The notes beneath the pieces are model-generated. The model did not search any database. It had not been told where the DNA came from and saw nothing but the letters and a program-made list of their open reading frames with translations. Below are positions 1 to 44,984 of a stretch of 64,000 nucleotides of DNA, piece by piece. Both the position numbers and the translations under genes were made by a program. The stretch is from an uncultured Myxococcales bacterium (GTDB lineage Bacteria; Myxococcota_A; UBA9042). Position 1 is the first letter of the stretch; every line of letters starts with the position of its first letter. The stretch spans positions 1 to 64,000 of the forward strand of contig CAIXGW010000357.1 of the NCBI GenBank assembly GCA_903919145.1. Reading direction: 5' to 3'.

Positions 1-240
1 CCCCTAGGCAATGTCCGATGCGCCACCGCGCCGGTCCGCGCCTCCGCCGGACACTCCCCTAGGCAATGTCCGATGCGCCACCGCGCCGGTCCGCGCCTCC
101 GCCGGACACTCCCCTAGGCAATGTCCGATGCGCCACTGCGCCGGTCCGCGCCCCCGTCGGACACTCCCCTAGGCAATGTCCGATGCGACACTGCGACGCC
201 GCCCGGCTCGGTCGGACACTCCCCTAGGCAATGTCCGATG
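1..240. repeat. 55-bp tandem repeat array (4 units plus a partial fifth), cut by window edge
   Basis: Units begin at 1, 56, 111, 166 and 221 with an exact 55-bp period. Units 1 and 2 are identical, unit 3 has three changes, and unit 4 is diverged in its middle. The part kept in all units starts CCCCTAGGCAATGTCCGATG and is preceded by CGGACACT. This makes a dyad CGGACA-N13-TGTCCG at 48-72, 103-127, 158-182 and 213-237. The array may extend left of the window. It lies about 70 bp upstream of the lipoprotein gene at 331. No coding role is supported: the ORFs here are GC-rich shadows. Its core recurs in the array at 32511-32826. Confidence 0.95.
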
Positions 241-303
241 CGACACCGGCGACCACGGCAGCAGCCAGCGCGCCATTGCCTACCAGACTCGTGGCGCCTG
301 CGT

Positions 304-32340: not shown

Positions 32341-32510
32341 TCGCCGCTGGGCGGTCCGCCGCTGGCCGTAGACCGTTGGCCGGTTCCTCCAAGCTACGGA
32401 CCGTCTCTCCGACCGTGACGGCCCCATTGCACAGAATCTCCCGTTCACGCAAGGTATTAGCCTGGCCCCCCGCCTTTGCGAGGGTGACGGTGGGGGCTTT
32501 GGGGGAGGTT

Positions 32511-32826
32511 GCCGCACGTCTCGATGGGCTCCAGGGTCGCCAGCCGTGAATTCCCCAATGGCCAAGCGGATCAGACATTGCCCACCCGACTGTCCGAGGC
32601 CGGTGGGGGCCATCGCCAGGCTGCCGCACGTCTCGATGGGCTCCGGGGCCGCCAACCGTGAATTCCCCAATGGCCAAGCGGATCAGACATTGCCTACGGT
32701 ACTGTCCGAGGCCGGTGGGGGCCATCGCCAAGCTGTCGCACCTCTCGATGGGCTCCGGGGCCGCCAACCGTGAATTCCCCAATGGCCAAGCGGATCAGAC
32801 ATTGCCTACGGTACTGTCCGAGGCCT
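32511..32826. repeat. 112-bp tandem repeat array with the same dyad core as the left-edge array
   Basis: Units start at 32547, 32659 and 32771 (period 112), preceded by a partial unit from about 32511 and ending at 32826. Copies 2 and 3 are nearly identical; copy 1 differs at scattered positions. Each unit carries CAGACA-N13-TGTCCG at 32572-32596, 32684-32708 and 32796-32820. Read on the minus strand, this region aligns with the 55-bp array core (about 26 of 33 positions by eye), including TAGGCAATGTCYGAT. Nothing suggests coding. Confidence 0.93.
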
Positions 32827-36028: not shown

Positions 36029-36970
36029 TCAGCGCTCTCGCATCAGCCTGCCGGCGTGCTTGCTGCAGTCCAGCGTGCGCATCATCAAGCCCATGTCGCG
36101 GGACAGTTGCTCTCCGGGAGGCGGAGTTTTGCGCAGCTGGTCTTCGGTCTGCCCCTGGGCCAGCGCCGCTGTCAGCGCCTGCCCGTGCTCCAGCCGCGCC
36201 TTGAGGTCCCTGCCAGCGCAGAAGGTAAACGCCGCCAGCCTCCGCAGCTTGTCGGCGCGGGTCAGGCGAGCGGCAGGGGCGCCACTCTCCTGCGGCTGAT
36301 CCCCTTCCAGCGCCAGACCTTGCTGCTTGGCGATGGCAGAGTAGCGGTCGTACAGCGCCTCGGCCCGCCGGCGCAGCCCCTGCAGCTCGGGCGCCAGGCT
36401 TGAGTGGACCCGCAGCAGCGGAATCGGATCGTAGTCCTCTTCACTGCCCCGTCGCGCAGAGAATTCGCGGTACAGCGCCTCTACCACGCCAAAATAGCCT
36501 CGCAGCAGGACCTCTGTATGTTCGTCTCGCAGTGCGGCGTTTTGAACTTCTTTCTCCAGCTCGTCCGCAGGAGGCGGCGGCGGCGGTAGGCGCGCCAGGC
36601 GAAGGCTGGGCGGCGGTACGGCCCGCTGGGGAGCTCCCGCCGGCACGGGCTGCGGCGCCGGATAGCGCGCCCCGGCAAACGCTACAGCGTGGGGCTGCGG
36701 GTCCTTCTTGAGCTCGACCTGCGGGCCGCCACAGCCAGCCAGCACCGACACTGCCAGCACCGACACTGCCAACGCCGACACACCCAACACTGACCTACCC
36801 AACACTGACCCACCCAACACTGACCCACCCAACACTGACCCACCCAACTCTGACCCACCCAACTCTGACCCAGCCAGCGTCAAAAACGCCGCGAGGCGCC
36901 CTGGACTCCCTAGCTGGTCCAAAGCGCCCCGCGCGACTGCCCATGGCTGGCTAGACTTCAGCAAATCCAA
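36029..36970 (-). CDS. Lipoprotein whose signal peptide is encoded by 15-bp tandem repeats
   Basis: The frame (up to 313 aa from a TTG) has no ATG before the lipobox 'SVLAVSVLAGC'. The stretch before it is made of GSELG/GSVLG repeats encoded by 15-bp units with GTG and TTG codons, so the true start is uncertain. After the Cys come a Pro-rich linker and a helical domain of about 190 residues with heptad-like Leu/Ala spacing ('ELQGLRRRAEALYDRYSAIAKQ') and a few Cys at the end. The TTG lies 3 bp after the stop of the PQQ-like gene, suggesting one operon. Function is unknown. Confidence 0.6.
   Translation of the reverse strand: MDLLKSSQPWAVARGALDQLGSPGRLAAFLTLAGSELGGSELGGSVLGGSVLGGSVLGRSVLGVSALAVSVLAVSVLAGCGGPQVELKKDPQPHAVAFAGARYPAPQPVPAGAPQRAVPPPSLRLARLPPPPPPADELEKEVQNAALRDEHTEVLLRGYFGVVEALYREFSARRGSEEDYDPIPLLRVHSSLAPELQGLRRRAEALYDRYSAIAKQQGLALEGDQPQESGAPAARLTRADKLRRLAAFTFCAGRDLKARLEHGQALTAALAQGQTEDQLRKTPPPGEQLSRDMGLMMRTLDCSKHAGRLMRER
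36741..36880. repeat. 15-bp tandem repeats inside a signal-peptide coding region
   Basis: On the plus strand the unit is ACCCACCCAACACTG, repeated about six times with small changes (GAGCTC variants at the right end), flanked by diverged CAGCACCGACACTGC copies. On the coding strand each unit contributes one GS[V/E]LG block. Because 15 is a multiple of three, unit gain or loss keeps the frame while changing signal-peptide length. Confidence 0.9.
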
Positions 36971-44677: not shown

Positions 44678-44984
44678 TGAGGAGCCTCATGAGGAAAGGT
44701 GCCGCAAACGCCCGCGCCCCTGGCCCTGACCCTGACCCTGGCCCTGACCCTGACCCTGGCCCTGACCCTGACCCCCAACCCGGCCTGCGCGCATGGCCCT
44801 GACAATGAAAGCGACAAGGAAGACACAGTATCGCACCGAGGATGCACCGTTGGCAGTTTGGGCGCAAGATCGGCTAGCCGCAACACCAATCTGCGGTGCA
44901 AAAGCTCGCGGCGACCGCCCCGGGGATGCAGTGGAGGATTGGCCGGGATCGTGGCAAGATAGGGCAAGGTCTGCGGAGGACGCC
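44678..44984. other. Intergenic region holding a 6-bp repeat tract
   Basis: Divergent region between the kinase and the lipoprotein at 44985. It contains the CCCTGA/CCCTGG tract (44716-44775) and the two ribosome-binding sites. I see no RNA gene and no convincing promoter. Confidence 0.5.
44716..44775. repeat. Hexanucleotide tandem repeat CCCTGA/CCCTGG
   Basis: About ten head-to-tail 6-bp units with an 18-bp higher-order pattern (CCCTGGCCCTGACCCTGA). It is non-coding on the evidence here, although both strands stay open because of the 6-bp period. It lies 40 bp upstream of the kinase GTG. Confidence 0.9.

Follow-up and report, generated by a model that had tools for sequence, protein, structure and literature searches.

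Tandem arrays in an uncultured Myxococcales bacterium probably derive from both ends of a RAYT-type transposase element

Introduction

A 64,000-nucleotide stretch of DNA from an uncultured Myxococcales bacterium (hereafter the window) carries two tandem repeat arrays, one at its left edge and the other ~32 kb away. What kind of element would place the same palindromic core at two such distant sites? A first-pass annotation had reported that the arrays share a dyad, with the second array lying on the opposite strand before livK and pgi. It had further suggested that selection on a protein-binding site or a structured element, rather than simple slippage, preserves the dyad while the filler around it drifts. 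Here we describe the repeat family to which both arrays belong, the genes that its members flank, and the explanations that could account for its distribution.

Results

Two arrays share a palindromic core

Both arrays are real, and their common core is a 27-bp imperfect palindrome, YCGGACA-N13-TGTCYGA (roughly YCNGACANTNCSSTAGGCAATGTCYGA). Tandem Repeats Finder (TRF) resolves the left array into 4.5 units of 55 bp and the livK-pgi array into 2.9 units of 112 bp. The pattern CGGACA-N13-TGTCYG is matched 11 times over both strands of the window (7 distinct sites), whereas 0.03 matches are expected from shuffled sequences. The repeat features of the window are as follows.

1 to 248, plus strand: left array of 55-bp units, 3'-type repeats (TRF; contig overlap; unit matches the 3' flanks of three RAYT-like genes)
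47 to 73, plus strand: copy of the 27-bp core (dyad), left array (core pattern match)
102 to 128, plus strand: copy of the 27-bp core, left array (core pattern match)
157 to 183, plus strand: copy of the 27-bp core, left array (core pattern match)
212 to 238, plus strand: copy of the 27-bp core, left array, followed by the 3'-type extension TGCGACAC to 246 (core pattern and 3'-flank match)
32506 to 32825, minus strand: array of 112-bp units, 5'-type repeats, between livK (minus) and pgi (plus) (TRF; missing at the syntenic site of five same-genus genomes)
32548 to 32597, minus strand: 5'-type repeat, core 32571 to 32597 and AT-richer tail 32548 to 32570
32660 to 32709, minus strand: 5'-type repeat, core 32683 to 32709 and tail
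32772 to 32821, minus strand: 5'-type repeat, core 32795 to 32821 and tail

Copies in the livK-pgi array have an extra conserved, AT-richer tail of ~23 bp that is absent from the left-edge copies. Contig C357 terminates in the left array, and contig C63 carries at its right end the same array, continuing into the same downstream sequence, which indicates that the assembly breaks inside this array. The 112-bp unit is also arrayed on contigs C53 and C364 (83-88% identical). An Rfam scan of the window gave no match. Tandem repeats with periods of 15 and 18 at 36738 to 36876 and 44718 to 44774 are unrelated to the dyad arrays.

The earlier impression that the dyad is kept while the filler drifts is quantitatively right. 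Within arrays, pairwise differences amount to 0-7% in the core and 6-22% in the filler; because copies were found via the core this comparison is mildly biased, and the arrays show no missing units.

The core is expanded throughout one genome

The first-pass annotation had called for a genome-wide search and had made its reading depend on the core being present elsewhere. The genome (6.97 Mb, 404 contigs) contains 124 exact copies of TAGGCAATGTC, compared with none of the reversed control. This expansion is lineage-specific: the maximum in 52 relatives is 6 copies, and five same-genus genomes have 0-1 each. A covariance model likewise gives at least 114 matches in the genome and nothing convincing in the 52 relatives. 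With a weight matrix at a threshold of 14 bits, at least 149 copies were found at 76 sampled loci and none in the reversed sequence (848 kb, mostly around matches). The count of 149 is a lower bound, since covariance-model matches also occur on contigs outside the 848-kb sample.

The repeats are placed almost entirely between genes. Although 84% of the sampled DNA is coding, 142 of the 149 copies are intergenic; these counts are approximate because genes on the sampled contigs were called with a simple home-made gene finder. High-scoring core copies do lie within predicted genes at L079:1276-1308, in a threonine synthase-like reading frame (SDKALGNVREV), and at L072:7412-7444, and both are possibly in-frame repeat insertions. 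Counted by locus, 20 sites fall in convergent gaps, 19 in divergent and 19 in tandem ones, with convergent gaps over-represented for their length. Mapping copies relative to genes, as had been proposed, revealed no promoter-side or gene-strand preference at the sampled loci. Nor does the strand of the copies follow GC skew (37 of 72 loci).

Single copies account for 39 of the 76 loci, and these have the same core in unrelated flanks. The remaining loci have 2-7 copies each, spaced at periods that differ from locus to locus (38, 44/45, 55, 76, 89, 100, 112, 134 and more). Neighboring copies are on the same strand in 67 of 73 cases, forming direct tandem arrays rather than the inverted pairs that characterize REPINs. 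One 45-bp array is common to contigs C208 and C364, where it is 94% identical.

Repeats come in two end types

Sequence outside the repeats is unrelated between loci, and two types of repeat can be distinguished. In the commoner 5'-type, the ~23-bp AT-richer tail (roughly TCCATGAAATTnCTGnGGATTTC) follows TGTCTGA, so that this end consists of the 27-bp imperfect palindrome plus the tail (roughly TGTCTGATCCATGAAATTnCTGnGGATTTC). The 3'-type is inverted and has the same palindrome with another extension (TGTCCGATGCGACACTGCG). The unit of the left array aligns with the 3' flanks of three RAYT-like genes (31 of 35, 27 of 32 and ~35 of 42 positions), and the alignment extends beyond the palindrome. 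The left array is thus made of copies of the 3' end of an element and the array at 32.5 kb of copies of its 5' end.

Covariation within the 27-bp imperfect dyad does not exceed that of shuffles and lends no support to a hairpin under selection or to the structured element suggested earlier. Palindromes near other RAYT-like genes mostly score no better than shuffled sequences, and the flanking repeats of most other RAYT-like clades are not self-palindromic. No GT[AG]G foot precedes the core, where positions -25 to -14 are essentially unconserved; (C/G)TAG occurs in the repeat only in the center of the dyad.

The livK-pgi array is absent from relatives

Each of the five same-genus genomes has livK and pgi side by side without the array. 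The spacer between conserved stretches is ~360-530 bp in these relatives versus ~900 bp in the window. This synteny favors a gain of the array in the present lineage over five losses.

Two other loci are less clear-cut. At the 38-bp array on contig C243, homology with the relative G005 stops at the array start and the right side is non-orthologous, so this is not a clean empty site. The C53 locus shows homology on the left side only. At the matching position in G005 (L235), directly behind the gene that corresponds to the left side of the 38-bp array, there is a different inverted pair, CTAGGAGCTTGTCGGA ... TCCGACACGCTCCTAG, which may belong to a repeat family of that species' own.

Inverted copies bracket transposase genes

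Genes located between inward-facing copies encode paralogs of ~370-390 amino acids with the motif FHFMSNHYHGLYG. In this genome five of these genes group as a single clade, and about eight others are more distant. Upstream of all five (on L096, L071, L048, L099 and L151) lie 5'-type copies, at distances of ~100-190 and 300-500 bp; those at L099 are diverged. An inverted 3'-type copy lies ~60-100 bp past the stop codon of the genes on L096, L071 and L151; no 3' copy is recognizable at L099 and L048. This clade of five HUH-Y1 transposase genes is the likely source of the repeats.

The same arrangement recurs more widely. In a set of 34 RAYT-like genes from several genera, the upstream and downstream sides of a gene have inverted repeats in common that are peculiar to that gene or its close kin (self score 11.9, mismatched pairs 8.5; 0 of 20000 permutations), a result that is significant for the 34 genes as a set and is not recognizable at every gene. 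Direct-orientation repeats yielded nothing in the flanks of these 34 genes. An ungapped 5' motif ending in TGAAATT precedes the majority of 30 RAYT-like genes and crosses genera (score 528 versus 306-333 when shuffled).

If each transposase has its own repeats, then flanks of other genes should predict further families, and in two further cases they do. The word CAGGGCTTTGKYA, taken from the flank of another RAYT-like gene, has 73 further copies in this genome (control 0). The word CACCCTTGTGTCA, from the flank of a relative's gene, occurs 31 times in one relative and 20 times in another, and is absent from this genome. A third flank-derived core, TGACCCAATGTYA, has just 8 copies, mostly beside its transposases. 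The CAGGGCTTTGKYA family occupies contigs C249, C363, C368, C16, C187 and others of genome G000; C363 and C249 also carry the RAYT-like genes that belong to it. CAGGGCTTTG is a repeat of another family. A second conserved block (roughly AACTTTTTTCGCC ... CCGCGGCAAAA ... CGATCACC; L151-L170, L191-L216) is located between the 5' repeat and the gene, ~20-100 bp upstream of RAYT-like start codons, and may be a promoter or leader, or belong to the element end.

The proteins have HUH and tyrosine residues in a Y1 fold

The encoded proteins match Y1_Tnp (PF01797; best E 4e-6), with L096 above the Pfam cut-off. Their sole NCBIfam match is REP_Tyr_transpos (NF047646), for which four proteins of this genome score 22.8-28.2 bits, below the curated cut-off of 80 bits. 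Of 22 relatives, 21 match NF047646 as well, at a best E of 1e-14. The catalytic residues are conserved: 19 diverse members all have H61 and H63 (as H61-Y-H63), Y121 and Q125. All 19 aligned members have Y[IV]xxQ[AG] in place of the class 2 signature Y---NP.

Structure prediction for the homolog L191, a protein from another genome than the five genes above (22 sequences, pLDDT 83), gave a fold whose top match in the PDB is 4ER8, a complex of the E. coli REP transposase with a REP hairpin; the ISDra2 and IS608 transposases come next. The proteins thus combine an HUH motif and a catalytic tyrosine in a Y1 fold, as in RAYT (TnpA_REP) proteins. A PDB sequence search with a single protein gave no match, and a profile search gave IS200/ISDra2 transposases at marginal significance (E 0.013).

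Four aligned genes are 55-66% identical, and there are no near-identical gene copies. The subclass or near relatives of it occur in 94 of 284 Myxococcota genomes. Named matches are Myxococcales or Deltaproteobacteria MAGs except for one labeled Proteobacteria and one labeled Klebsiella. The latter record, titled as a Klebsiella pneumoniae MAG (CAMDBH010000008.1; L196), has a Myxococcota-type transposase, is the same-family genome G006 and is probably mislabeled. These named relatives are the basis for placing the window in the Myxococcota.

Discussion

Comparison with known systems

The family resembles REP/REPIN repeats and their TnpA_REP (RAYT) transposases, such as the E. coli REPtron (PMC6006769, PMC8049555, PMC8266576), in having short palindromic, intergenic, high-copy repeats. 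As with REPs, the repeats are lineage-specific and flank a cognate RAYT gene, there are several gene-specific families per genome, and the protein has HUH and Tyr residues and a fold like 4ER8. In contrast to REP/RAYT systems, the GT[AG]G foot and hairpin covariation are absent, and one end type joins a 23-bp AT-richer tail to the 27-bp core. The proteins also differ from RAYTs, with Y---Q rather than Y---NP and ~320-410 amino acids including a C-terminal extension.

TIRtrons and their TIRYT proteins (Di Nocera et al. 2013, PMC3733652) are similar in that inverted repeats bracket a Y1 transposase gene, solo repeats are moderately abundant and the protein is longer, with a C-terminal extension. 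TIRtrons mostly belong to subclass 2.1 (PMC6006769). However, the class 2 Y---NP motif is missing from the proteins described here, and many published TIRs share GGGGWSAS whereas the cores here read GGGGASTG on inspection. Class 3 TnpA_Y1 proteins (PMC6006769) are alike in having Q instead of NP and in their numerous repeats (about 600 in Solibacter), which are atypical and lack GTAG. They are ~178 amino acids long, with NHVH, Y----Q and a CnGA foot, and come from Planctomycetes, Acidobacteria and Proteobacteria, whereas the proteins described here have NHYH, Y---QA and ~320-410 amino acids and come from Myxococcota. IS200/IS605 elements share the catalytic HUH/Y domain with Y---Q, but here near-identical gene copies are absent, the C-terminal extension is long and end repeats alone reach high numbers.

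The system is therefore known in kind (REP/TIR-type), the protein subclass is undescribed and its ends are atypical. The signature of NHYH, Y---QA and a C-terminal extension fits no subclass tabulated in PMC6006769, and no report of REP/RAYT-like systems in Myxococcota was found in the literature searched.

Origin of the arrays

The best explanation for these observations, and one that we consider very probable, is that the arrays are REP-like non-autonomous mobile repeats derived from both ends of a RAYT-type (HUH, single catalytic tyrosine) transposase element. Genome-wide expansion, transposase flanking, the confirmed predictions and the absence of the array from the livK-pgi site of relatives together support a REP/TIR-type mobile repeat with its transposase. 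Some observations count against a mobile repeat: the lack of covariation and of a GTAG-type foot, the flanking repeats without self-palindromes in most other RAYT-like clades, the few repeats at some RAYT-like genes, the missing 3' copies at L099 and L048, the non-orthologous right side at the C243 site, and the absence of a GC-skew strand bias, which one might expect from lagging-strand transposition of single strands.

Dyad symmetry, the preserved core and the high copy number would also suit a genome-wide operator or nucleoid/partition site, at which a dimeric host protein binds GACA-N13-TGTC and selection keeps it. The first-pass annotation had favored a protein-binding site or a structured element, and its view that the dyad looks protein-recognized and is not plain slippage holds up. 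A host regulatory or structural role is nevertheless very improbable: same-genus genomes hardly contain the family, which ignores promoters, strand and gene orientation, forms up to seven near-identical tandem units, shares entire 112-bp arrays between loci, and marks the ends of HUH-Y1 transposase genes as inverted repeats. Ordinary minisatellite slippage at unrelated loci would explain why about half of the loci are tandem and why units in one array share local filler. As a full account it is refuted by the single-copy loci, with a core that is the same genome-wide, and we regard it as extremely improbable; existing arrays may still grow by slippage or unequal crossing-over.

It is also conceivable that another mobile element spread the repeats and that RAYT-like genes merely adjoin them. 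Copies do have neighboring genes of many kinds, and no function is assigned to the protein's C-terminal region. Such an origin is very improbable given that RAYT-like genes are flanked by inverted repeats of their own, that the 5' motif is common across genera and that flank-derived words predicted new families.

A mobile repeat of this type could operate as the known family does (PMC6006769, PMC8266576, PMC3733652), and by that analogy the protein would bind and cut the palindrome and move it as single-stranded DNA. The transposase presumably recognizes the element ends and then nicks one strand, and the ends would be copied or moved into intergenic DNA. Units in place might then be multiplied in tandem together with the local sequence between them. 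A bolder and rather doubtful proposal is that in this Myxococcota HUH-Y1 subclass the two ends spread independently as solo repeats and the transposase itself amplifies direct tandem arrays, for example through a rolling-circle single-stranded intermediate. If this is true, then Y1 enzymes would have a further way to shape genomes, beside REPINs and IS200/IS605.

These findings define the element behind a previously unexplained repeat, propose an enzyme for it and extend REP/RAYT-like systems to the Myxococcota, a phylum with large genomes. The tandem arrays provide a way into the question of REP-type repeat replication. Where a genome combines at least five related transposases with several repeat families, the co-evolution of transposases and their repeats becomes testable.
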